Shown here: in pieces, positions 27,632-64,000 of the stretch | Layout: each line of letters begins with the position of its first letter | How positions within the stretch are numbered: the stretch's first letter is position 1 | DNA from: Camillea tinctor | Lineage: Eukaryota; Ascomycota; Sordariomycetes; Xylariales; Xylariaceae | Assembly (NCBI GenBank): GCA_022578605.1 | Contig: MU394055.1 | Span: forward strand, 562,902-626,901 | Length of the DNA: 64,000 nt | Direction: 5' to 3' | Translations under genes and position numbers: made by a program | The notes under the pieces: generated by a model | The model's database searches: none | What the model was told of the DNA's origin: nothing | What the model saw: the letters and a program-made list of their open reading frames with translations, nothing else

Positions 27632-27700
27632 CCATATATCACCACCATCCGAACCACCCCACATGGCGAACACGCAAAACCCCCCTAAACTCACCAACTT
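27632..27700 (+). repeat. outer inverted terminal repeat, left copy
   Basis: It begins CCATATATCACCACC and contains GGCGAACACGC. It matches the right copy at 65 of 69 bases. The four differences are an AT/GC pair near the tip and two C/T changes. Confidence 0.9.
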
Positions 27701-28155
27701 TTAAGTTAAATAGTTTAATCATTTTAAAAGCTATAAATTTAAATTTAAATAATTTATAAAGTTAATTTTTAAAAGTTATTAATAATAACTTTTTATTATA
27801 TATATTATATATAAATATATTATATATAAATATATTACGTAATATATTAATAAAGTTATTATAAAAATTTTATAAAAACACATATAAAATAACGATTTTA
27901 AATTTACGTTATTTACTTAAATTAAAGCTATTTAACTCGTTTTTAAAATTTATAAAATATTTTATATTTAAATATATTTAAAATTTAAAACCGCTTATTT
28001 TTACCATTTTTCTTTATTTTATAAATTGATATTTTATTTTCCCTATATTAAAACAAACCCACTTGATGCAATCACTGTATATTAGGGGGTGCATAGCACC
28101 CCACATAGATAAGATAAGGACTAGTACTAGCACTAGTAGATAAGATAAGAAGATA

Positions 28156-28196
28156 GCAACATTTAATGTGCAGCGCAGCTGCACATTCAATGTTGC
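28156..28196. repeat. 41-nt near-perfect hairpin at the centre of the fold-back element
   Basis: GCAACATT and AATGTGCAGC pair with GCTGCACATT and AATGTTGC around a 3-nt loop, giving 19 paired positions with one T/C mismatch. A second perfect hairpin, GGGGTGC-ATA-GCACCCC, lies about 70 bp to the left near 28087-28103. These are the only G/C-rich parts of the element. Confidence 0.9.
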
Positions 28197-28602
28197 ACCT
28201 TGTCATCTTTCTACATACTCATAATACTACCCTATACTGCCACATTTTGCATTACCACTTTTATTTATTTTATATAGTAAAAATATAAGTTAAATTTATA
28301 AAATAAAGAAAAATGGTAAAAATAAGCGGTTTTAAATTTTAAATATATTTAAATATAAAATATTTTATAAATTTTAAAAACGAGTTAAATAGCTTTAATT
28401 TAAGTAAATAACGTAAATTTAAAATCGTTATTTTATATGTGTTTTTATAAAATTTTTATAATAACTTTATTAATATATTACGTAATTAATAAATTTTATA
28501 ATATTAATTATATATATAAATAATAAACTTTTTATTTAGAATTTCATAAAATAAAAGGTTTTATAATTATAACTCTTAAAATGAACTGGTTATTTTATTT
28601 TA

Positions 28603-46206: not shown

Positions 46207-46250
46207 CTATTCATCCACACCTTTGCGAACACCTCCACATTAAGAACACC
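46207..46250 (+). repeat. terminal inverted repeat, left end of the AT-rich element
   Basis: It starts CTATTCATCCACACC and contains TTTGCGAACACC. It is preceded by TA. Confidence 0.8.
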
Positions 46251-46845
46251 AAATTACATATAAACCACTTTATTACCAATTATTTTACTTATATATATGA
46301 AATTTACTTTTAATGCTATTTATAAGCAGTAAAGCTAATATGTAAATTTAAAATTAAAGTTTTTTACGTAATTTTTTTAAAAAGTTTTTGCGTAAAAACT
46401 ATAGTAAAATTAGTGCTATAAATAACTTTATTTTTAGCTATTTATAAAATATTATACTTTTTTTAATTTTTTTACAATAACTTTATTAAATTTTATTTAT
46501 TTTTTATTATTTTAAAATGTTTTTATATATAAACGTTAATTTAAAATGTACTATTTATAATGTTAAATAAAAATGCTTATTTTTTAAAGTTATAATTGCA
46601 AAACGTAATATTTTTTATAATTTTTTTTAATTATTTTTATAAATAATAAGGCTTATTAAGTTATTATATATAAATAAAATTAACATGTAAATAAAAAAAA
46701 GTTTTATTTATTAAATTTTATGCTAAAAATTTTTAAGTTTTACTTTATTTTATAATATAATTTATAAAATTATGCAATAATTTTTTTTTAATAATAAATA
46801 TTAAAAAAAAATAAGTTATAATTAAATTAAATGTTTTATATATGA

Positions 46846-47010
46846 TAGTTGCATAATAAGGATAAAAAGTTACAATGTACTTTGCATATAAATAAGTTGC
46901 GCTTTTTTGCGCAACTTTAATTAAATAGTTTCTTTTTTAAACATAAATATATAACCGTTTTTTATATTTATTATTGTTTTTATTTTTTTTAGTATATATA
47001 CCTATTAATA
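46846..47010 (+). repeat. left LTR
   Basis: It begins TAGTTGCATAATAAGG and ends TACCTATTAATA. A GCGC-TTTTTT-GCGC hairpin (near 46900) is shared with the right copy. It differs from the right LTR at about 15 positions, almost all C/T or G/A. Confidence 0.9.
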
Positions 47011-50000
47011 TTAATTAGTATTGTTAAATATATAGCAATATAGATTTGTAAAGTAAAAGTTTTTTTATATACTTTATATTTTTATTTAAAAGCATAGCGA
47101 TTTATAATAAATATAAGAAATTATTGTTAATATTTTATACTTTTATTTAAAAGCATAGCGAAATAAAATAAAGCAGTAATAACATTAGCATTTTTTTTTA
47201 TGTCGAATAAATAAGCTTTTTAAATATTTTATTTTGCAATATATAACTTATATTTTCTTTTTTTTTAAGAATAACGATTTATATTACTTTCGTTTTTAGC
47301 ACTATTACTATTTACGATGTTAAGTAACGGTTAACTAGGTTTTTTAACTTAAAAAACTTAATAATAACAATAATAATAATAGCTTTAAAAAAAAAAAATA
47401 ATAGGAAATTATTGAAAATGAGGATATTATAGCTTTAAAAAATATAAATTAATTATAAAAACTTGTAACATTATTACTTATAGTAAATTAAGGCGTTTTT
47501 TAAGCTTTTAACCTTTAAGTGTTAAAATAAGAAACTTTTAATTATGCAACTAATACCTTATAATAAAAAGCAATGTAAGCGCTAATTTTTATACGAAATA
47601 TTAAAGATAACGACTTTTATTTAACGGCTTTTATACTTAAAAAAGCGTTAATAAAATATTAAGAACGTTTTAAAAAATTTAAATAATATAACTTTAAGCA
47701 AATGTTACGATAACTTCGGTTTGCACTTTATACGGCTATAATGAAATAAAGTGTTTACGTTAGTAGAGTTAATGGTAATTATATAATACGTTTTGACGTA
47801 TTAATAAAATGAAAAATTTTACTAATGCTACTTTAATATAAAAAAGATTTATATAAAGCTAAAAAAAGGTGGCTTTATTAGTTAATATAGAGAATAATTA
47901 TTTTTAAGTTTTACAAAAAAGGGGAAAAATAGCTTTGCGATTTTGTTTTTTTTTTTTAACTTTAATAAATAATAAGTCTTGCTTTAAAAACTTTAATACA
48001 TAACTTTAAATTAACATTTTAAACTTTTATAAAGATAATTACGTTAAATTACTTATTACTTATAAAAAAACAAAATTACGATTTTAAAATAATTAATTTA
48101 TTAATAGTAATTTTTTTATTTAACCTTTAATACTAAACGTAACAAACTTTAAAATTATTAAATAATCGCACTGTTTATAACTTTTTTACAATGCATATAG
48201 TAATGTTATTTATGCTATTAAACTTTTTAACTTTATTATTTAAGCATATTTTTTTTATTTCTTTTTTTTTACCTTTTTAAATAACTATAAAGCCAAGCAA
48301 TATAAATTATGTAAAATATTTCTTACATTAAAGAAATTTTAATATAAACAATAACCTTTTCCTTTTTTTATTTTTTTAAAAATATATTAAAAAATACACT
48401 TTTAAGTATAATTTTATTTATAATACTAAAGTGCTACGTTAGCAAACCGCGTTTTTTTAATACTTTTTTCTTGTACTTATACTTTATTAAACTTTAATAT
48501 ACTTATAACTATACTTATTTATAAAAGGTAGCTAAGGCTAAAAAAGCGCCGCACTTTTAAGTGCATAATTACTATATTTATATGTTTTTTTAAAATAAAA
48601 ATATTTTTAAGGCTTTTTATACTAATTATTTCTTTTAAGCTACTTAAACGGAAAGTAAAAGCTTATATAAAACTTTAAAAGTTACGGTTTTTTTTTTTAA
48701 TAAGTTAATTGCTTATTTTTAAAAGTAATAAATATAAACAAGCATATATGCTAGTTAAAAACTAAAAAAAGCAATTTTATTACATAATTTTTTTAAAAAA
48801 AGTTATAAATAATATATGCTTTTTTATAATTGTTAAGCAGTTTAAAAAAGCATAAAATAAAAAAAATAACTATATAAAAAAACTATATAATATTTTTAAA
48901 AATAAGTTTAAGTTTTTTTTAAATATGTGTTATATAACTAAAATTTAATAAAGTTAATTTTATACCGTATTTTTAATAATTTTAACAAGCTAAGCAGCAA
49001 TATATTTTTTTTATAATATATTAAAGTACTAATGTTTTATTAACATATACTTCGCGATAAAGCGCTATTTTAATATAAAATAAAATAAAGTTTAATACTA
49101 TTATAACTAAACAGCAATTACGTTTTTCGACACAAAGGCAAAAAAAGCTAATAAAAATAAAACTAATTTAAAAATATTTTAAATTATATTAAATAAACTA
49201 TTTTTTTACTAAAAAGCATTAAGGTTAAAGTTTTAAAAAAAGCAATAGCTAATTATAACGATATATTAAGCATATTATAACGTTTTTTAATTATAATACG
49301 CATTTTTTAAGCTAATATACTAGTTTAAAAATTTAGCTAATAAGTTTAAAGCATTTATTAATATTTATAAAAACATTAAAAGTACTTATTAATATTTTAT
49401 AATTAAAAAAAGCAATAATAATAATAACAACGAAACTTATTAATTTTATGTTAACTATAAGTACTATTATAATAATAAAAGCAATAAATATTATTTTAAA
49501 TAATAAATAAAGATATAAAAGCGTAAATGTTAAGTATATAAAAAAAAAAAATATTAGTTAATTAAGCATTTTAAATAAAAATAAAAAAATGCAAAGTTAT
49601 AATAAAAAGATTAAAAAAAGCAAAATAAAGGAAATTATATAACATTTTTAGCAAATTATAAAAAAATTAAAAATATAATTTTAAAATTAAAAATTAAAAA
49701 ATAAAATATACATAAATAAAATGTATAAAAAAGCAAACAGTATATAATAGCAGCTTATTTATATAATTAAGCATTTTAATACCAAGTTAAATTAATTTAT
49801 TAAGTAATAAACTTAATAATTAACATTTTTAATATTAATACTATTTTTATTTTTAACTAATATGTAAAAACTATATTTTAAAGCATTATATTAAATATAA
49901 AAGCAATAAAGGTATTTATAGCTAAAAAAAAGCAGTATTAAGCCTTAATTAATAAGCACTTTAATAAACATTTAAAAATAAATAGTAACCATATAAATAA

Positions 50001-53000
50001 AGCAAACATTTATTTTAAAAACGGAAAATTAATAAAGTTATTAAGCATAATAATAATAAATACTTTATTTAGCAACGTGGACTTTTATATTATAAAAATA
50101 AATATGTTATTTTTACTATATTTTAAAAATATAGATTATTTAAAAGTATACTTTAATAACGTTATTAACTAGTTAATATGTAAAAATAAAATAATTATAA
50201 GTATTGTTTGCAAATAAGGACATTTTTAGTTTTAATTAAACAAAGTAATATACTTTATAAAAATAAAGCTTTATTGCATTTATACTTAATTTAGTTATTT
50301 ATTTATAAGCAAGTTATATAACTTTTTAAATAAAGCAAAGCATAAAATTAACATTAAAAATATTAAAAAAATTAATAAATTTTACTATTATTATTAAATT
50401 AAAAGTAAAGCACTTTAAAAGTTTAAATTTAATTTTAAAAACTTTAAAATAAACTTTAACTACAAAGTTATTATTAATATTATATACTTTAATAAAAAAC
50501 CAGTTTTATATGTTATTAATATAACAATTAACTTTTAAGCAGCTTAATTTTTAAGAACCATTTTAATAAAAAAAACGTAAAAAGCTTTTAAAAAATGTTA
50601 AATCGATATTTACTTTAATTTATTAAACATTATTATATATAATGCTAGAATTAATTTTAATAGCATTAAATTTTAAAATAAGGCCTAACTTATAAAAATT
50701 ATATATAAATAAGTACTGGTAAAAGCGCATTAATTTATTAAAAAAGTTAAAAAGTATTATAAATTTATTTAAAAAGCATACGAAATTATTTTAAAAAAGG
50801 TATAAAGCTTTAAAGCATTTTAACTATAAATAGCAATTAAAGCCGTTAACAATATAGCAAATTTTAACAGTTTAATTTTTACGTTTTTAGTTTTTAAAAT
50901 ATACTTAAAGATTAATATAAACTTACTTTTAATATTTTTATAATTATAAAAGGTAATTGCAGTTTAAAAAGCAATAATAAAAATTAAAAAAATTAAAGCA
51001 TAAAAGTTAGTAAAAAATGCTATAAATATTTAAAATAGCTTTAATATATAAAAAACGTTGTTAAAATTATTACTTTTAAGTAATAACGTTTTAATTTATA
51101 AAAAAAAAAGCAAATAAAAAAAACTTTATAAAGTTTTAACAATTATAAATAAAAAAATAATTATAGCGTTTAACGCATTAAATAAAACTTTTACGTTTAA
51201 AAGCTTATATGTTAAACTTTATATTTAACTTAAAAAAAATTTAAAACTTTTATAAAACTTAATAGTTAAACTATTTAAGCAACAATTTAACTTTAAAAAC
51301 TATAAAGTAATTTTTAAAAAAAAATTAAACATTATGCATATTTAAAATATTACTTATATAAACATAAAAAAAAAAAACGACTTAGTTTTAATACTTAAAC
51401 TTTAGTTTAAAAAAAAAATCGTAATTTTTAAAAAACTATATAAAGCATTAAACTTTATAAAGCTAAATGCATTGTTTGCAAATAGCATTTTATAATTTAT
51501 TATATATAATAAAGCAGTTTATTAAAATGCTATAGTGTTTAAATTATAAATAGTTTAAAAAGTTAAAGAGAAAAATATAGTTACTTTATATAAAAAGTTT
51601 AAATTAGTAGTATAAAAATATAAGAACTTAAATAAAAAATTTATTATAATATATGCTTTAATTATTTAAAAAGTAAGTTAAAAATTAATAATAGCTTTAA
51701 TATTAATGTTTTAATAGTAAAGTATAAAAATTATAATTTATAACATTATAATAGTATATATATAGTTAAAAACTTTAATATAACGTGTAATTTTTGTATA
51801 CTTATTATTAGAATTAAAAAATAAATATTTTAAAAAAACGTTATTATATATTATAAAGTTATTATATAAACTTATAAAATTAAGTATATATTAGTTCGAA
51901 ATATACTTAAAACATTATTAATATAAATTAAGTATAAAACCGTTAACTTTTAACTTTTGCTTATTAATTATAAAAAAAAGATAACTTTTTAAAATAACGG
52001 GCTTATAAACTAATAACATGCTAAATATTAGTACTTTAAAATTTTTAAAAAAAAAAGATAAAATATTAATTAAAATTAACATTAAAGCACGTTTTTAAAA
52101 AATATTAAAAAATAAAGCAATTAAAAATTTTAATAAATTGCGCTTAATAGTTTATAAAAAAAAGTACAATATTTTAATTAAATAAAAAAGTTAAGTTAAA
52201 AAATTAAAATTACTAAACCTTAAAACTTTTAACATAACTAAAAAGTATATAAAGCAAAAAATTTAAAAAGCTTATATTTTTTTTATTTGTTAATTAAAAG
52301 TAGCTTTTAATTACTTAATAATTATATAATATATAAAACTTAATATTAAAAAAGCTAAAGTTTTAAATACTTAAATTTAATAGTAAATAGCTAATAAAAA
52401 GCGTAGTTTTAACTTTGTTACTTTTAATTTAAAAAACCTTTATTTATATATATTTATAAACGGTTTATTTACTAATAATAAAAATATAAATTTATAAATT
52501 AATTACTTTATTATACTAAAAAATAAAGAACCTATAACGTAAAATAATGAGTTAAAAATTATAAGCAATATAATTTATTAGTTTTTTATTAAATATAAAT
52601 AAGTAACGCGCAATATACTTATAAATAAAATCTATAAAATAGTTTAAAAGTTTAATATTAAATATATAATACATTAAATATTTAGTACGATTATAAATTA
52701 AACATTTTATTTAAAAATCTTTTTTATACTTTATATTAACTTATTTTTTTTATATTAATGCTTTATATAAATAAAAACTATTAACAAAAAAAAACTTATA
52801 ATTAACTTAATAGCTTTATAGCAATTATATAAAAATTAAAAAATTAATAATATTTAATAAATTTATAGAAATTATAACTTAATAAATGCAATAATAAAAG
52901 TAGTACTTAATAAAGTAATAAAAACGTTAATTAAAAAAAATTAAATTGTAATTAAACTAAAAAAATAAGTTAAACGGAAAGTAGTATAACAAGTTTACGA

Positions 53001-53030
53001 TTTTTTTACAAAAAAAAATAAAGTAAGTAA

Positions 53031-53195
53031 TAGTTGCATAATAAGAATAAAAAGTTATAATGTACTTTATATATAAATAAGTTGTGCTTTTTTGCGCAAT
53101 TTTAATTAAATAGTTCTTTTTTTAAACACGAATATATAACCGTTTTTTATACTTGTTATTGTTTTTATTCTTTTTAGTACGTATACCTACTAACA
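53031..53195 (+). repeat. right LTR
   Basis: It begins TAGTTGCATAATAAGA and ends TACCTACTAACA. It has the same length as the left copy. Confidence 0.9.
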
Positions 53196-54766
53196 ATATA
53201 ATAAAATTTAATTATTTAAATTAAAATAAGCTATAAAATAAAAGCATTTAAATTTAATACTTTTATTTTTAAAGCTATAAATTAATATTTTAATATATAA
53301 AAAAAAATATAAAAAAATTTAGCTTAAATTAACTTTTAACGTAAATAAAAAAAGTTTAATAATTAATTATAATTTATAATTTATTTTAAAGTTTATTTTA
53401 ATAATTTTATTAATTATTTTATTAAAAATTAATAACTTAATTTTTAAAACTTTTAAAACTTATAAAGCTTTTATAAAAAGTTTGCAATTTTATTTTTAAA
53501 CTTTATTTATTAAATATATTAATATAATAAGCTAAGTATTAACTTTTAAAATTATTTTTAAAAATAAAAAATTTTAAACTTTATAGTTTATTAAAAAATT
53601 TAAAAATATAGCAAATTAATACTTTATATATTTAAAAAATAAATAATTATTTAATATAATAGTTATAAAATAATTATAATAAGTTTTTTTACTTTAAACT
53701 AATTACTTTTTTTATAATTTATTAAAAGCTTACTTTTTAATACTAAATAGCTATAAAAGTTATATATTAATAAGTTATTTTTATTTTTATATTAATTAAT
53801 TTTATTTTTATAATTTTACGATTTTTTTTACATGCATTATAAAAAAAGTATATTAACATATTTTTTTTAATTAAAGTTTATGTTTATTTATTTTTATTAT
53901 AACATTTATTTATGTTTTTTTTTAATTTATTACTTTTATAATTTTTAACTTTTAAATAATAATTTATTTAACTTTTTAAAAATATATTATTATTGCTATT
54001 TTAATAAATTAACTTTTTAAATTAATAAATTATTTATAAATAAAATTAACTTTATTAAAATTTATATTAAAGTAAAAAAAATAGCTTTTATTAAAAAAAT
54101 TATTATAATAAAGTTTAAAACTATTAAAAATTAGCTTATTAATTGCAAAAAAGCTTTAAAATATTTAAAAATTTAAAATATAATAAAAATAATAAATATA
54201 AAGTTATAATTAAACCTTTAAAATATAACTTTTTTTAATATTAATAATTAGTTATTAAATTAAAAATTTTAGTAAATTTTGCACTTTTTAATTAAAAATT
54301 ATATTTAAATTAACTATTAAAGCTTTTAAAAAAAATTAAGCATTTTTTTTTTTGCAAAAAAAAGTTAAAAAATTTTAAGTTAAAAATAAAGCGTTAAGTA
54401 AAAAAAAAGCGCAAAAAAGTTCTTAATTTTAACAAAACGTTTATAAAATTAATTTAAATTTAAGCTATATATAAAAAAATTACTAAAAAACAATTTATAG
54501 CTTTTAAAATTAAAAACAAATTAAAATTAAATAAAAAATTAAGTAATAAATTAAATAAAAAATTTAGCAATAAAAAGCTAAATAAGCTTATAATATACTT
54601 ATTAATACGCACGCGTTTTAATTGCATTATTTAAGCTTTAATTAAATATATAAATTAATTAAAAAAAAATATTTTTATTATGTATTTATTTTATTTTTAC
54701 TATTTTTTTTAAAAAATTTTATATATTATTAAAGTTGTAGTGTTTTAGTAGTTTGTTATACATTTT

Positions 54767-54810
54767 AGTGTTTTTAATATGGGGGTATTCGCAAAAATGT
54801 GGATAGATAG
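54767..54810 (-). repeat. terminal inverted repeat, right end of the AT-rich element
   Basis: Read from 54810 leftward it starts CTATCTATCCACATT and contains TTTGCGAATACC. It is followed by TA at 54811. Confidence 0.8.
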
Positions 54811-54812
54811 TA

Positions 54813-57800
54813 ACCTCCGCCTCTCGGTAGCATTAAAGGTAACTCTGAAAATATTAAAAAACTTGGTATTATAATACACCGCTTACTTAGCGAATTCTGC
54901 GACTCTGATTGGTATCAGAAAGGCTTGTGTGAATATTACATCTGATTATATACTATAGAGTGCGCGCGTATGGAGTTTGTGAAACATAATAATGATTGAA
55001 ACTATAGCCAGTCGATTTCGAACTACTGAATCAGTTCACCGACATCGTCTCTACTGCCTCCTATTGTTCTTTCTTCAGTCTAAGGGAGGGTCCTTGTTAG
55101 TTAAAGCTCTCTCTCGGTCGAGCATGTGATATTTATTTTCTTCGGCTCTTGAGTCAAGAATAGAAAGAGGGGTTAAGGGGATATAAGTCTATCTTGAGAC
55201 ACAATCTAAGCCCTCTCACTCTTCGGAGACATAATGAAGATTGGGAAAAAGATCTCCCCAGAATACGGACTCGAGTGCCTATTCGGACGCTAGGGTAAAA
55301 TAGGGTCTACGCAAGATCCGACTCGGCATTAGCTGATCGTCGTCGACCCAACCCCTCGGGCTATATGCTGGTCTCAGAGGGAAACAGAGCGCCGGGAGAA
55401 CGCAAGGCTATAAGCCCTCTAAATGCCGCTTATACTATAGTCTAGTGCTATAGTTGAATGTTTAGTAAACAGGATAGACACCGGTGAGAAGGAGGGCAGA
55501 GAGGCGGGCTTGTATTGTCAGAGGACATCAGAATCAACCTATTCGGCATGTCTCAACAAGGGAGACGCACCTTTTTTTTTTTACTATCTTCGCCTATCTC
55601 ATTCAACCAATTGCTAAACTAGCTTATGTCTTACCTTTGCATCTCTTTGCCTTCTTAAGCAGATCGGTAGAGCTTCTAGACGTAGTCCGGCCCCTTTTTG
55701 AGACATCTGCATCATGGCATTAGGGAACGTCTAACTCTCTAAGGGAGGTGGTAGAGGCTACCCCTTTCTAAGTAGATCTTATATTGATCTAAGGGCCTTA
55801 GCAAAATAGCTAAGTCCTGCCCTAAGCCTCTTGATCATCGATCTCATCTACAATGCGTCGGCGAGATATGTCTGTCAAATCTACGTAGAACTAGAACCGC
55901 CACGTTGGAACCTCTTTAGGGCTTCAAGCCAATGGTATAGAAACGCTATATATAGGTACTCATGTTCTGGTTAAATACCCCGGATACAGCTTTAAGGGGT
56001 AGGAACCTGTGTTTCTCTAGATAACAATATATCCCAAACGACCACTTATCCACTTATTCAAGGCACCCATCGAAAATCCATAAAGAAAATCAGGACTATG
56101 CTACTATTTTCTCTCCTCTCGAGGTAATAGTATGGTACGCTAATCCTGCCCCTTTTCCTTCCGCTGTCCCCCACTGTCTGTGTGGCAGTTTTAGGCAAGC
56201 TACTCGTTATGTCCAGCCCTGCGAGGCTGTGTTTCTACTGCCCTATCAGGCAACATCATGCCGTGCCTAGCCGGTTTGTTTTTCTTGTCTTTTAACGGCC
56301 AAGACCGAGATGCGGCCGTATCTAAAGAGAAAAAAGGAGCCGCGAGGGGGATAGGAAGATTCTCGGTATCGAAGTAAGCAAAGAGGGTCTAAACAATGAT
56401 GATCATCGACTATATGTAAATAGTTGCTTCAATGACGAGGTGTGTGCATGGAGATCCAGTATCCCAGCAAAAGACTTAGTCTGTTCTCAGTACCGTGTTA
56501 TTCCTATTCCGTTCTACCCCGGCCCGAGCCGGACCGGGCGGAACTAAATTGGCAGATCCGAACGGGATAAGCGAACCCGGGTCACTGGATACTGCTTACC
56601 AACCCCAATCAAGTAGGGTTTATTCACCTCTTTACAATGTAGGCGAGTAAGCTGGGCGGCTTAGGATCCTATATTCATATAGTCATTTGTGAGAGAACCC
56701 GGAGATTGGGATCTAAGAACTGAGCGTTGAGATCTAGGAGTACAAGGATTTCCGGCAGACAAAGGCGCTAATTGTGTGTATATTTCCCTCCGCTATTGTT
56801 TGCCTTTAGTTATAATTATTTGCGTAATAAAAACTACAGGTTTTTCTACATAGGGTACGATTCATGGCACCATTCGTGCTGAAATTAAGACATGGAAGAG
56901 TGTTGCTATACAGACAGCTTCTTGATTGTGGGTCAAGGCCGCTCATTTAAGGCTAAATACAATATGTAGAGATACTGGGAAAGAGATGGACTACTGCTAA
57001 TTTGTAGTTGGCGATATTATATATAGATATAGCATCATTCCATGAACAGTAAGAGAAGAGTTGATATAGCCATAGTGTAAGGAAGAAGGTTTAAGAATGC
57101 AATGAAAACTGTGTAGGAATGCTGGGTGTTATATAAAGAGAGAGCTATAATAATTACCAACTATTTAGTCGTCTTATATCTTCTTTGTCATGTTTCTACT
57201 CTACTGAGATATAGATATGATTTCCCCCTTTGCCTTATTGACTTTGATTAACCTTAAGCTATACGTTCCTTATCATTCCTGACTACCTAGGTATATACCC
57301 ATATAACCTATATTAGAATCACTACACGCATACACACGTATACACCTACATATACTCATATGTTAAGGGAATAAAGATAGAAAAGTCCATGAGGGGCCTA
57401 GGAAGGGCTTAGGTAGTCATAGTGTTGTTGTGCGGGAGACTAGAACCGCAACTGCCTCTGATACCGTTACTTATATGTTAACATCGAACATTCTCTTTGT
57501 TGCCTCATAATCTAGCACACCGTTCCTGACAGTAAACGAGACATAAAAGCTTATTCTACGTAAATGCCAATATATTTCATGTTTTTGTGTAAGGGCCAAA
57601 GCAAAACTATCACTCCTGTAGCCATGTGCATATTTACAGATATAGATAGTGGCCTCGCAAACGTAGTGTGTTCATACACAAAGAAATACGTCCTAACAAT
57701 GATGTTTTATAGTATTTCGATAGATGAAGACTATCATCCTTGACCTGGGGACTGAGCTCATCCTTTACGCGTTTTATAATAACTTCGTTTGTACATCAGG

Positions 57801-60800
57801 CAAGCCAAGGACATTGAAACAGGGGATGCAGAGCTAGACGAGAGAAAACTGATATTGCTTTTATACCGAGTCTCTTTAGGATTGATTTCTTGCGTTAAAG
57901 CAATTTACACACACACCTGTGTGGGTAGATATCACAGGAGACAAAAACTGTTCCAGAGACCGATTCATATAGCCTATCTTTGAAATACGCATACTTTATG
58001 TATATCTATAAGGAGTGGGAGTTCTCAGGGGAGTAGAGATAGAGTAGGATGAAGAGCTGTACGTTATCTCGTTCAGCCTGATGCTAAAGAGCAGGCTACG
58101 ATATAACTAGGTAGTGACTCTATCCCTTACCTTCGGGGAAACGAACACACAGCATCGAAGCGACGACGTGCATATTTAGATGATGCTAAGGCATACATAC
58201 ATGACCTAGGTTACCGATGTGATAAACCCTTATATATCTGTGATATTGTGAATTGGGATCCCCCCTTACGTCCTCGGGTCGTAGCTAAGATGAAGAAGGG
58301 ACAGTATAAATAAATGAACGCCGAGACTAGCTAGTTCGGTGTTTTGTTGTGCACTTTGCCTACGTAAAAAACTGATTCCCGTTTTCTCGTGATGCAGCAA
58401 TCCATATAACCAACCGCCAGGTAACCGTTTTAAGAGGCTTTCATCTTGTAACGATGCTATTCTGCTAGTAAGAGAGCTCTATCTATCCGCCATAGTTCTC
58501 ACACAACAGCCCCCTTTCCTCCAACACCTTCTTTTCTATTCCCTCGTTGAAAAAATCTACATAACCTTACTAGACCCCTATAGACCCTTAGAGTTCATCC
58601 ATTCGCAAATCAGAGGTCATATTCTTCTCCCAACCCCCGTCGCCCTTTCACCTTCCCTCTCTATCAATCTTATCCACAGGCCTAGACCGGTTCGAAAGAA
58701 GACATTTCCTTTCGAACCACGCTGGATTGTGTTATTCCCAACCGCGCATAAAATTGACATCCGGGATTGGGCGAGTCCCGGAGGTGGCGAACAAGTCGTG
58801 GGTAACACGACATCTGCCCCCCCTCTTCTTCGTATCCCTTACGCGTTCCGGATCCCAACGTACGATAGGCCACCCCATTTACACCAAGCTATCGTATATA
58901 CCCTCATAGCTAATAAGCATAAAGCCTCGGTATGAGAAAAAAAAATAGAAACAAGATAAATGGATGGCTGAGGTAAGTTTGTAGGTAATAAGCATGTAAG
59001 GAGGTTCCCCATTGGAGCGTGGCTGTATCTACATGCTATATACCTAATACCTATCTACTTACCCTACATACGTACGTACGTACATGAACTATCTCCATCT
59101 CCATCTCCATCACCAAACCACCCTTGCCTTCTTTCGACAAGAACTATATACTCACCTTTTATCTTACATAAGCTACGAACCTACGGAGCTGTTGACTTCA
59201 TGTCGATGCTTGTTCGCTCGCTCGTACCCGATCTCTTGTTTTTGCGCTGACGAAGAGACTATAACGAGCCGCAGCAGGCCAAAGCCTCGTTTCCCGCTCC
59301 ACCCGCATAGCCTTGAAGCGCGCGCTAATTATGGCGCGTAAAAAGCCGTGGGTATTCCGGTATGTACCTACATATAGGTTATATATCTTTACCTACCTAC
59401 CTACCTACTTAAATTAACTTATATAGTTGACCTTAGCTAGGTAATTAGTTAGGCGGGGAACTAAAGGTAAGGTTAACGTAAGGTTAACGTAAGTGAAGGC
59501 GGCTTATACGGGCCCTACGGGGGCTGCGTCCCTACACGATGCCCGGGGAACCCTTGAAAGGAAGAGCAAAAAGGACGGTTTGCTTAGAAGTGAAAATAGA
59601 TGTTGGATTTTTAGATAGACAACTAGGTAGCTTAGGTATGTATGTAGTAGGTACGTGAATAAAAACATAATCATCTACCTAGTAAATCGTAACAAGGATC
59701 AATTGGCCTAGGTTAGCAGGGAGACCATATCAATGAACTGTTACTTCTTCTAGGAGGTCCATACAAGATAGACGAAGACAAGCAATATCACTATAACCAC
59801 AGAGGATGGTAGAGACTACTAATTGGATAGGTGAGCCACAGGTTAAATAATATTTCGATATTCTTTCGCCCATCTCAATCCACGGTCCGGCGGTTCGTAG
59901 TCCCCCTAAAGACCAATGGACAGACTGAGAATTGTTTAGAATACAGTGACCCAAATGACAAGCTCGCCAGCGGCTCTAACACCTTCATATAAAGCAGGTC
60001 AAATAGGAAGATGCGTACGTAGCCAATCAAGGTAGGCGAGGTAGGTTAAAGGTGATTTTATGTACAACCGGTATGGTCTGCTTTTTTTCTTTTCCCTTCT
60101 TTTTCTTCTCTTCTCGCCGGATAACTAGCGGCGTCTCCCTCCTCAAAAACCCCCAGGGCATCATCAGATAGGATAGGTTAGAGACACGACAGCTTCGTGA
60201 AGCCTGTCTTCCGCCCTCTAACATCCTTTTTTGGCCTCCAAACCTCTTTTCTCCATCCAGGAACCCCCCCCTCGGCTTGTTCACTTCCTAATCAACACGA
60301 AAACACGTACAAATCATCTCCATTCAAGAGTAACTTAACTAATAAAAAACCACCTCCCTGCCTCTCCCAAAGACGCCGATCCATTGAGAAGATGAAGACA
60401 CCTGGTCCAGCTTCGCCCCGGTTGCATTGTTTTCTCTGTTCTGTGGTGGAGGGAACAAGAAGTGAAGAAAAAATAACAACACGTAGGAGTTTTTAATAAC
60501 ACATAGCGAAGCTAGCAAAAAAGAGAAAATACGAAGATCATATTCGCTTCCGCAAAAGAGACCTAGGGGGGAATAAGTAAAGACAAGAAGGAGAGTTAGC
60601 AAAACCCATATATTCTAGGTCATCATCTAGAAAAGAGTTAGAAGAAAATAAATAATATCAATAGGAAAAGCCCAAATCCGTAACATCCAGAGCTATACGT
60701 AGATAAGTAAGACAGGCAGATAAAGCCGTATAATAATGTTAATAAGAATGTCCTGTAGTTTCTCGTATTTCCCGCGTCTCATCATGATTTAAACGAAAAA

Positions 60801-60857
60801 CATCATGTCAGATAGCAGTGACTAAGTTTTTTTTTTCTTAATGCTCCGCCTGAGAGA
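54813..60857. other. gene-poor region between the AT-rich island and OPY2
   Basis: Base composition returns abruptly to near normal at 54813. No gene is supported. A stop-free but ATG-less frame of 180 codons (58393-58935) shows no motif. The minus strand has a retroelement-like primer-binding motif GGTATCAGAGGC at 57454-57465. Short CCTAGGT motifs occur near 57286 and 58204. The end nearest 60857 is the OPY2 3' flank. Confidence 0.45.
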
Positions 60858-62196
60858 TTACTCTCTCAAGGCATTTTCATCGCCAAACGGACTAGCATCT
60901 CGCGAAGACCGGCGAGGAGTGGGAATGCCACTTGCCCGCCTTGTCGACTCCCTTATCGCCTCACTCAGGGAGTCGTTCTTTTCATGACCCTTAGGCGGTG
61001 GGTCTGAGAAGGGGCTCTGCAAAGGCTTTTCCGTATCGTCATCACGAGACACGTCTTCTTTACGGGCCTCAGGAACCTGCTCCAACGGCGACGAGGAGCC
61101 TTCGGAATCTACTACCACAGTGGGCGTCGACGCCTTGGACCTTTGACTACCCACACGGACTATCTGTGGTCGCACAACCGGTGCCGTCGCAGCGTTGGCA
61201 TTCTTGAAGAAAGTAGCCCCGATGCTAAAGGTCGGAGATGGAGGTGGCTTTTCGTTCTTTTCGTATTTGTCGTAATCAACCGCAGGTACCGGGGGTGTCG
61301 AATCACCACTGTTGCTGCTGGCAGCGCGGGACTTGACACTGACAATGGATGGCTTGAGGAAGTTGCCTTTCTGGGCCGGCATGGGAGACACGACGACATT
61401 CTTACCATAGATGGTAGATGCGACACTAGATCGTGGAGCATAGGACGTGCGAGCATACGAGGTCCGGTCAGTGTAACTAGAAATGCCAGAATAAGTCGAA
61501 TCGCGGAGGTCGCCGGGAACGAAGAAATGCTGCTCCTCGTACGGAGATGACTTCCCATCCGAATGGGCCAGAGGAATCGGAGGCACCGGGGGGACCAGCA
61601 GGGTCGGGGAGGTTGGGGTAGCTCGGTTGGTGACGCCGGGGATATAGGCGATTTGGATAATGTTGGAGGCGCGCGTGAGGACGGTAGAAGCGATGGAATG
61701 TACGGTGTGGGTTGACTCGCGCTGTGATCGCCTCGATGCAAAATCGGTTGCCATGCCCTCCTTGGTGTGATGTATCGACTCCTCCTGCCAACCCTCTTGC
61801 CCGAGCTGCTGTCTCTTGCTCTTGATGCAGAACCTCCAAACTAGATAGGTGACGATGCCAATCGCCGCCAGACCCCCTATCACACCACCGACAATTGCGC
61901 CAACATTGGGACTGTCGCTACTCGAGGAAGATGATGAAGCCGACACATCTCTTACGCAGATAGCCTGGGGACACTGGGTGCAGTCCATCGGAATCGTTAC
62001 TTGACATCTCTCGTTATCGGCACACGTGGGACATTCGGGCGAGGCATCTAGACACTTAACACAGCCATTCTGCCTCCTCGCCAGCGGCGACGAGGAGTCC
62101 TCGTCTAGTAAATAGAGGGTTAGCTCCCCTTTAGCGACAACTAGGAACGAGGGACTTACTGAGGGCAAAGCCAACAAAGCCAGGGTAAGCTGCCAT
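60858..62196 (-). CDS. opy2: OPY2-type membrane anchor of the HOG/MAPK pathway
   Basis: Exon 1 (62196-62160, 12 codons plus one base) and exon 2 (62104-60858) joined over a 55-bp intron (GTAAGT...TAG) give 427 residues, starting MAAYPGFVGFALNED. OPY2 is a single-pass plasma-membrane protein that recruits the Ste50 adaptor and so Ste11 to the membrane for osmostress and related MAPK signalling. The outer part has the OPY2 cysteine pattern with eight cysteines at 27, 30, 37, 40, 46, 54, 57 and 62 (CVKC, CPTC, NERC, CTQCP). A Ser run (69-75) leads to one membrane helix (about 80-102, AIVGGVIGGLAAIG), followed by basic KSKRQQ. The long cytoplasmic tail is disordered and rich in Ser/Pro, and probably carries phosphorylation and Ste50-binding motifs. 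There is no classical signal peptide, as in other OPY2 proteins. A frame that ignores the intron would start in the wrong place. Confidence 0.88.
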
Positions 62197-62899
62197 GGCG
62201 ATGAGGAAAGGACGATAACACAGACAAGTAGGACGGTTCACAATATGGATATGCTCCTGTTTAGGGTAGCCTGATTACGGCCTGGTGCTTTTGAAGATCG
62301 ACAAATCTGGTGTAGAAAGGACTTGGGACTAGATCGACCAGTGCTCTGCAGATCTTTCCGATTGATGATGCAGCTAATGTCTATATTGGCAATTGAGGGA
62401 CGAAATGACAAGAAATCCCGACAAAATCGAAGGCGATGATGAATGATTTTTTTTTACTGAGGCGAGCGATGTAATGGTGGTGGGGGTTGGAAGAAGAGGG
62501 GAAGAGTAAGAGATAGAATGGGGCTCGCCGTGAAGAAAGAAAGAATGGACGGGACGATGAGGAAGATGTGCCGGGTGGGTTTGGTGTAAGTGAGTGCTGG
62601 CGTTGAACGGACGGTGATGGTTGGATAAGTTTTTCTTGGATGGCTTGAATAAACGAGTGACTGGAGAGACTAGCTCAAAGAGAGAAAAAAATAAAAAATA
62701 AAATAAAAAATAAAAACGAATACCAATCGCAACCTAAGTGGCGATGACAAACGACATCGGAAACATCGAGTATTCCAAGTGCGACAAGAATAAAGTTGCT
62801 TAAGTGGTTGAATTCGAGTCGATGCGTGGAAGTGGAATTGTGCGATGCTTCGATGTGTTGTAACTGAATAAAGAGAAGGAGAATGGAAAATGGGGTGGG

Positions 62900-62931
<32 letters not shown>

Positions 62932-64000
62932 TGAGGTGAGAGAGGGGGGGGGGTGTGTGGTGGGAAGGGAAGAGAAATGGGGCCAGAAGTTCCAAAGAGA
63001 GAAGAGGAAGGATATGATAGGGAGGGGGAGGAAGGAAGAGAGACAGACATAAGGAAGGTACCTACAGTGAAAGGCAAGGCACACAAAAAATACAGGCACA
63101 AGGTACAAGGCACAAGGCACCGTCTTACTTGATTTTAATGAGGGATAATAGGCTAGGATAACCCCAGCACAAAGTACCTCAGGAACAGGCAGAATCAAAC
63201 AAGAAACACAAATCGGGTGTAGTCAAGTGTCACGTACAGGCCTAGCGAAACGCCCAGGGGGGTTGATCTGTTCTCTCATTTGCCCATCGATGGGATCATG
63301 TCCGCGTTTAAGAGGGGTATATTTATTGAATAATAAGGCGTACATCTATGTTCTCCAATGAATTCCTTTTTTTTCCTTTAGTATAGTAGTAGGTAATCAG
63401 TTCGTCTTTTTAGTGATTACACTACCTAACCACTTACACATAGTGTTCAGGATTGTTGCAGGATTTAATAGGTACCTGATACAATTCCATAATCCATATC
63501 CCTAGTGCTATTAAATCTATAAATTACCTAGCAATAGTATATTCAATAGGACGTACTTCTGCAAAGTTATTTAATGTTAGATAATAACTAGTACTTGGGG
63601 GTTAATTCACCTTACTCTATCCCATCTGATATTTAAATAACATCACCATCGCGAATAGTTAATAATAATCATAATAATAATGATAATAAAAGCATGGTCG
63701 CGAATGGGGGACACAAGAACAAGAAAAAAGAGGGCAAAAAATAAATCGGACCTGCCAAATTTGGGATCGAACAAGAAACTTGGCTGGGCGAGAACCTCTT
63801 AGATCGGCAAAATGGCCCACCATCGGGACCACTGTCGGAACTACACTGGAATAATCCCTACGGATTACTTCGGCCATAGGCATATGTAGGTTATATATAT
63901 ATATATAGATAATCAATCCCGTCCAGCCCGTCTAGCTCTTCCTTATGTGAATCATTTACGCTCCCGCTCTCGTGACGGTTCGCCATCGATTTTGGTGAAT
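62197..64000. other. OPY2 upstream region, no gene seen
   Basis: This is the promoter and leader of OPY2: purine-rich on the plus strand (pyrimidine-rich on the coding strand) with the GA repeat at 62903-62930. Beyond 63200 the sequence is AT-rich with no recognisable frame. Confidence 0.5.
62903..62930. repeat. (GA)n microsatellite
   Basis: About 14 GA units in the pyrimidine-rich leader region (on the coding strand) of the OPY2 gene, about 700 bp upstream of its start. Confidence 0.95.

Follow-up and report, generated by a model that had tools for sequence, protein, structure and literature searches.

A hypermutated repeat island of Camillea tinctor in which cytosine loss follows the 5′ neighbouring base

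The AT-rich island and its nested elements

To characterize a hypermutated repeat island in the genome of the wood-inhabiting ascomycete Camillea tinctor, we analyzed a stretch of 64,000 nucleotides (assembly GCA_022578605.1, contig MU394055.1, positions 562,902 to 626,901), referred to as the window, and searched the 44.7-Mb assembly for related sequences. The island has a GC content of 13.8% compared to about 46% in the surrounding DNA and is a degraded pogo-like DNA transposon with a long terminal repeat (LTR) retrotransposon inserted inside it. The features are as follows:

46207..54810, no strand: AT-rich hypermutated island, defined by composition and dinucleotides
46213..46842, + strand: left portion of the pogo-like DNA element; copies elsewhere in the genome have it contiguous with the right portion
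46838..46842, + strand: left copy of the 5-bp target site duplication ATATA, read by eye, with empty sites elsewhere
46843..53195, + strand: nested LTR retrotransposon, hypermutated, about 6.35 kb
46843..47010, + strand: 5′ LTR, about 168 nt
53028..53195, + strand: 3′ LTR, about 168 nt
53196..53200, + strand: right copy of the 5-bp target site duplication ATATA, read by eye
53201..54804, + strand: right part of the DNA element, which ends with the right terminal inverted repeat at 54804
53204..54157, + strand: decayed relative of the DDE_1 (pogo-like) transposase elements L075 (C103) and L076 (C20)

The DNA element is about 2.2 kb long and bounded by terminal inverted repeats, one at 46213 and one at 54804. 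Over 48 nt, the left repeat (from 46213) differs from the right end at 10 positions, nine of them by transitions. Since both halves of this element lie side by side at other loci (e.g., on C86, C9, C112, C68, C110, and C38), the LTR element is nested within it. The alignment of L075 to the window covers 53204-53365 and 53550-54157. The 3′ and 5′ LTRs are 89% identical across 169 nt; their differences fall in mixed contexts, as noted in the initial annotation of this DNA, and are too few to be used. At least a dozen further copies of the LTR element are present in the genome, each matching sections of a 2-kb probe at 81-89% identity. This probe gave 52 matches, and the best 17 of the 52, which were aligned, have 10-20% GC.

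Sequence context of surviving and mutated cytosines

The initial annotation had described the island as resembling a product of repeat-induced point mutation (RIP) in which cytosine was erased after a pyrimidine (YpC) and kept before adenine (CpA). Its counts were reproduced in both intervals on which it was based: 50041-50340 contains 19 C (12 ApC, 7 GpC, no TpC, and no CpC), 8 of them followed by A, and the 13 C in 53521-53820 are all ApC or GpC. For the complete island, with both strands counted, YpC accounts for 171 of 1186 C (14%) compared to 53% in the flanks (window 1-46000 plus 55000-64000), and the share of CpA (303/1186, 26%) equals that of the flanks. In a comparison with 200 mononucleotide shuffles of 46207-54810, TC was depleted five-fold (97 observed vs. 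512; z -24.5) and CA to a lesser degree (303 vs. 511; z -12.7). No depletion was found for CC (74 vs. 81; z -0.8), and the counts of GC (414 vs. 82; z +27.8), which is enriched, and AC (599 vs. 511; z +5.0) were above those of the shuffles. The ratios of observed to expected frequencies are 0.19 for TpC, 0.59 for CpA, 0.91 for CpC, 1.17 for ApC, 5.07 for GpC, and 2.35 for CpG.

The described erasure of YpC thus holds for TpC and for the share of YpC among all C; it does not hold for CpC island-wide, because clusters of C persist at the edges of the island and in a less mutated stretch at about 47.2-48.7 kb. CpA was not kept in the strict sense: its share of C is unchanged, but A has become very common in the island, so that CpA is depleted for the base composition. 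The remaining CpA was likely regenerated from CpG via mutation of the opposite strand, in addition to survival after G; a simulation with the context rule described below gave a CA ratio of.66. Surviving C and G are equally frequent in the island (592 and 594), and therefore both strands have been mutated. The DNA adjoining the island has normal dinucleotide frequencies. As had been expected, the standard RIP indices flag the island without revealing this context: TpA/ApT is 1.33 and (CpA+TpG)/(ApC+GpT) is 0.51, both in the range for RIP.

The context of mutation was determined in an alignment of two copies of the DDE_1 element, L076 (C20:328200-329500) as unmutated reference and L079 (C140:15050-16010) as its mutated sister. 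L076 looks unmutated, because of the 180 C kept by L079 on both strands none is a T in L076 and a single one is affected by a transversion. Across 960 columns, we found 223 C:G>T:A changes from L076 to L079, no change in the reverse direction, and three transversions. With respect to the 5′ base, C was mutated in 87/114 cases after T, 88/114 after C, 39/89 after A, and 9/87 after G, so that a preceding C and a preceding T had equal effects. With respect to the 3′ base, the numbers were 89/114 before A, 63/110 before T, 29/68 before G, and 42/112 before C. The alignment thus supported the proposed YpC preference and showed that CpA was not spared, being the most strongly mutated 3′ context. Within CpA, YCA was mutated in 68/73, ACA in 19/26, and GCA in 2/15 cases, so that the 5′ base still decides inside this dinucleotide. 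The 5′ effect also holds outside CpA (YCB 107/155 vs. RCB 27/135; Y, pyrimidine; R, purine; B, any base except A), where 134 of the 223 mutated C are located, compared to 89 in CpA. ApCpC was mutated in 5/25 cases and ApCpA in 19/26.

In a joint model of the L076/L079 data, the hazard ratios for the 5′ base were 1 for T, 0.95 for C, 0.38 for A (95% interval 0.26-0.57), and 0.075 for G (0.04-0.15), and those for the 3′ base were 1 for A, 0.55 for T, 0.34 for G, and 0.33 for C. The likelihood ratio (LR) was 121.8 (p 3e-26) for the 5′ base given the 3′ base and 37.9 for the 3′ base given the 5′ base. Positions -2 and +2 contributed little (LR 15.8, 6 degrees of freedom, p 0.015). C>T changes occurred on both strands of this DNA transposon, in 89/203 cases on one and 134/201 on the other. 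Under the context model, 110 and 113 changes would be expected, and the asymmetry between the strands gave a Fisher p of 4e-6.

Within the window, the right half of the DNA element was polarized with the DDE_1 elements L075 and L076 as outgroups. With L075, C was kept (of C+T) at 7/122 sites after Y, 15/66 after A, and 18/44 after G, with 60 transversion sites set aside; with L076, the respective numbers were 4/107, 11/45, and 15/36, with 40 sites set aside. When the L076/L079 rule was simulated to 13.5% GC, its distance to the NCN trinucleotide composition of the island was.033, the smallest of five models. The distances were.111 without the 3′ term,.313 without the 5′ term,.361 with Neurospora-type weights, and.393 without context. 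As the L076/L079 rule predicts the surviving cytosines best of the models tried, it can be linked to the island in the window.

The same comparison was made for a GC-rich repeat which adjoins copies of the LTR element (L027:2312-3294 on C21, L012:2969-3921 on C27, L005:4006-4874 on C64, and also in L004 and L065). It has 39-61% GC in the pieces from L027 and no open frame of at least 90 amino acids in the two copies checked. The mutated fractions by 5′ base were:

L027 to L005: T.67, C.68, A.28, G.19
L012 to L005: T.76, C.66, A.28, G.21
L012 to L065: T.82, C.80, A.39, G.15
L004 to L065: T.95, C.88, A.57, G.32

The order of the 5′ bases is that of the L076/L079 alignment, but L005, L065, and L012 each occur in two of the pairs, which are thus not independent. 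Five pairs, plus L076 against the window, were picked from 40 listed of 193 BLAST rows with at most six high-scoring segment pairs listed per pair. A segment pair was kept if forward transitions were at least 2-fold more frequent than transversions and at least 4-fold more frequent than reverse transitions (11 of 26 kept), a filter that by design favours pairs with an unmutated partner. In three further DDE_1 copies, C was mutated in 30/57 cases after T, 18/30 after C, 60/189 after A, and 51/204 after G, and in 59/120 cases before A, 77/243 before T, 18/90 before G, and 5/27 before C, which again follows the order seen in L076/L079. All 75 substitutions between L077 and L078 are transitions.

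Direct comparison of mutated copies gave fractions by 5′ base of.73 (T),.70 (C),.46 (A), and.43 (G) for the LTR family of the window and of.88 (T),.89 (C),.43 (A), and.37 (G) for Copia elements, for which the longer L057-L059 were used instead of L042-L044. Transversion rates in this comparison do not track the 5′ base. These rates were not relied on, because T>C back-mutation in T-rich DNA could inflate YpC, and the flank-matched version conditions on unmutated neighbours. Among the alignment columns in which 70% or more of the copies carry C, there was no YpC site. All 13 RVT_2-bearing places found have TpC ratios of 0.00-0.20. In a series of 620 windows of 300 bases graded by GC content, from which L001, L031-L036, L060-L063, and L066-L074 were excluded, TpC/CpT decreased with falling GC from.99 via.85,.61,.33,.19,.11, and.08 to.04, and CpA/ApC from 1.06 via.97,.79,.68,.54,.49, and.43 to.34. 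TpC is therefore lost first and furthest. In summary, pyrimidine-preceded C was mutated more than purine-preceded C in the window LTR family, Copia elements, pogo-like DNA transposons, and the GC-rich repeat, and the proposal of a YpC-preferring process acting on both strands of the DNA element and of the nested retroelement was borne out.

The mutated families sampled are multicopy. Two Ty3/Gypsy elements with a chromodomain (L055, C26:37000-42500; L056, C14:681000-686000) have a normal GC content and long open frames for pol; the sole other DNA match of each is a 66% stretch in the other. A further locus, L039 (C78:3564-7301), has an unusually high GC content (59%) and contains an open frame of 691 amino acids that includes a reverse transcriptase domain.

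DNA methyltransferase and deaminase genes

The initial annotation had suggested a methyltransferase or deaminase as the cause and a search for both types of genes. PF00145 gave six matches in the genome, taken as four genes (L031, L032, L033, and L035). The best match of L031 is the solved methyltransferase 9bap, which we take to be DIM-2, suggesting that L031 is DIM-2-like. L035 matches 7r76, deposited as Rad8 and presumably DNMT5, and is accordingly regarded as a putative DNMT5-like gene. In a tree of 50 chosen rows out of 204 proteins, L033, which is 100% identical to a protein from C. tinctor (Xylariales, Graphostromataceae), was placed within a 32-row clade (SH-aLRT 100) that includes proteins of Neurospora and Sordaria bearing the name 'RIP defective', which identifies it as the RID orthologue. 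L032 (C34:215733-219269) belongs to a 12-row group (SH-aLRT 100) with proteins from Biscogniauxia, Xylaria, Nemania, Rosellinia, and others, and is a second RID-like methyltransferase, of a lineage common to many Xylariales. Both RID types occur in Biscogniauxia and Xylaria, and for Hypoxylon and Daldinia the best 120 hits listed contained the L033 type only. The deepest splits of the tree are weak (37). The catalytic PPCQ and EQT motifs (IV and VI) are intact in both L032 and L033.

PF00383 was found at nine places, six of which were scanned against Pfam (L068, L073, and L074 were left out). L069 is a cytidine deaminase above the cut-off and L067 is Tad2-like, whereas L066 and L071 showed weak dCMP-deaminase/TadA matches under the cut-off and L070 and L072 remained unnamed. 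None of the six scanned genes (of nine) matched an APOBEC family, although the genome was not searched with PF08210. The deaminase alternative thus finds no support in the six genes scanned.

Comparison with known systems and alternative explanations

The changes are one-directional C:G>T:A transitions on both strands of repeats, CpA is preferred at the 3′ side, and a RID/Masc1-type gene (L033) is present. We therefore consider it likely that RIP or a RIP-like process produced the island and that its choice of targets depends in the first place on the 5′ base (T = C > A > G) and in the second place on the base at the 3′ side (A > T > G = C). The pattern recurs in the AT-rich repeats sampled, and RIP with such a two-sided, 5′-led rule is the best reading of the data. 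The observation made in the initial annotation was confirmed in this way, and its interpretation was supported in part. As for the mechanism, the recognition of repeats and their mutation would take place during the sexual phase, as they do in Neurospora, and the enzyme is probably a RID-type DNA methyltransferase, with L033 and/or L032 as candidates. It could act by methylating cytosine or by catalysing its deamination. The strong protection of GpC would be accounted for if the target-recognition region of the enzyme reads the 5′ base.

The RIP of Neurospora crassa, which depends on RID and DIM-2, shares with the process in C. tinctor the C:G>T:A changes on both strands, the decayed repeats, the favoured 3′ CpA, and the RID orthologue. 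The published Neurospora rule is a 3′ CpA preference, whereas in C. tinctor the 5′ base outweighs the 3′ base and GpC is mutated least. It is very improbable that ordinary Neurospora-type RIP with a 3′ CpA rule only, TpC loss being a by-product of saturation or of the starting composition, explains the island, although the standard indices lie in the RIP range and no 3′ context is mutated more than CpA. A 3′-only rule simulated to the same GC content leaves TC ratios of 0.75-0.95 and GC ratios of 0.72-0.87, in contrast to 0.18 and 5.35 observed, and the starting sequences, represented by the intact Gypsy elements L055 and L056 and by a flank within the window, have TC ratios of 1.12 and 0.91, respectively. 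Both a saturation artefact and a biased starting sequence were rejected on these grounds, and the L076/L079 alignment shows the 5′ effect at a fixed 3′ base. A role of DIM-2 together with deamination of 5-methylcytosine in mitotic growth, rather than of RID, appears improbable, but less so. The DIM-2-like gene L031 is present, and Dim2 of Zymoseptoria promotes mitotic CA>TA mutation. As CG is methylated most in that fungus yet mutated little, the modest CpG rate in our alignment (29/68) is no argument against DIM-2; the Zymoseptoria signature, on the other hand, is CpA, and the passages available mention no 5′ rule.

YpC is also the context of APOBEC3 and that of ultraviolet (UV) damage. An APOBEC-type cytidine deaminase editing retroelement cDNA or exposed DNA at TpC and CpC is highly unlikely as the cause, since the DNA transposon and the GC-rich repeat show the same pattern, both strands of the island are equally depleted of C rather than carrying strand-specific cDNA edits, and the scanned PF00383 genes gave the negative result described above. 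Even less probable is unrepaired dipyrimidine damage of the UV type in heterochromatin, because the far higher rate at ApCpA than at ApCpC is the reverse of a dipyrimidine rule and the DNA adjoining the island has normal dinucleotides.

A more serious alternative, which we nevertheless regard as unlikely, is that the 5′ rule is a general, unreported feature of RIP in many ascomycetes and that C. tinctor is not special. Publications mostly tabulate CpN dinucleotides, and RIPCAL by its own statement was not designed for trinucleotide bias. On the other hand, CpA accounted for 240 of the 242 mutations that RIP caused in a duplicated stretch of 14 kb in Zymoseptoria tritici (PMC10294615), compared to 89 of 223 here, with C-to-T changes in duplicated DNA common to both fungi. 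A CpA bias is also described for Paecilomyces (PMC6300479), and according to a 2025 survey, RIP-like defences have the CpA preference in common (PMC12543289). In Microbotryum and other Pucciniomycotina, RIP-like hypermutation occurs at TpCpG (PMC5381629), so that a 5′ base (T) belongs to the target as in C. tinctor, where, however, 3′ G is disfavoured (hazard ratio 0.34) and 5′ C equals 5′ T. Neither a 5′ pyrimidine rule in ascomycetes nor a second RID in Xylariales was found among the literature matches listed, which mostly exclude subscription papers and were available in part.

A 5′ preference in an ascomycete, which would favour a general 5′ rule, is reportedly known from Magnaporthe, whose RIP is said to prefer (A/T)pCp(A/T); in C. 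tinctor, by contrast, 5′ C equals T and A is clearly worse.

Several results weigh against a two-sided, 5′-led RIP rule in C. tinctor. Protection by 5′ G was weaker elsewhere than in the L076/L079 alignment (9/87), with mutated fractions of.15-.32 in the pairs of the GC-rich repeat and of.25, compared to.32 for 5′ A, in the three-copy DDE_1 set. The simulated rule deviates from the island for CC (.40 vs..81 seen), AC (.86 vs. 1.17), TC (.31 vs..18), and GC (6.92 vs. 5.35). The test on shared C sites is weak for YpC: it comprises 7 and 12 columns, the fraction of T being.72 as opposed to.57-.60, and one column each at the strictest cut. The unmutated L076 coexists with the mutated L079, i.e., mutation of copies is incomplete; the two were perhaps brought together by a cross. 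Neither L032 nor L033 is tied to the mutation pattern by the present results, and the 5′ rule may be commoner in ascomycetes than dinucleotide tables reveal.

The two-sided, 5′-led rule is likely new among RIP variants, which hinges on trinucleotide tables of other fungi. With more reserve, we suggest as a possibility, which we hold to be somewhat doubtful, that Xylariales possess, besides the RID orthologue, an anciently diverged paralogue (the L032 lineage), and that one of these two RID-type enzymes evolved a 5′-reading rule favouring YpC and protecting GpC. Such a two-enzyme RIP would be inseparable from the Neurospora type by the standard indices. To our knowledge, how RID selects its cytosines is unsolved, and a natural system dominated by the 5′ base offers a handle on this selection. 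Tools based on CpN dinucleotides, TpA/ApT, and CpA indices catch only the 3′ half of the context, and further 5′ rules may be hidden in published genomes.

A second, small AT-rich patch is located in the window at 27700-28450. It has 18% GC, contains tandem repeats, and shows a milder loss of TpC (23 TC and 52 CT).

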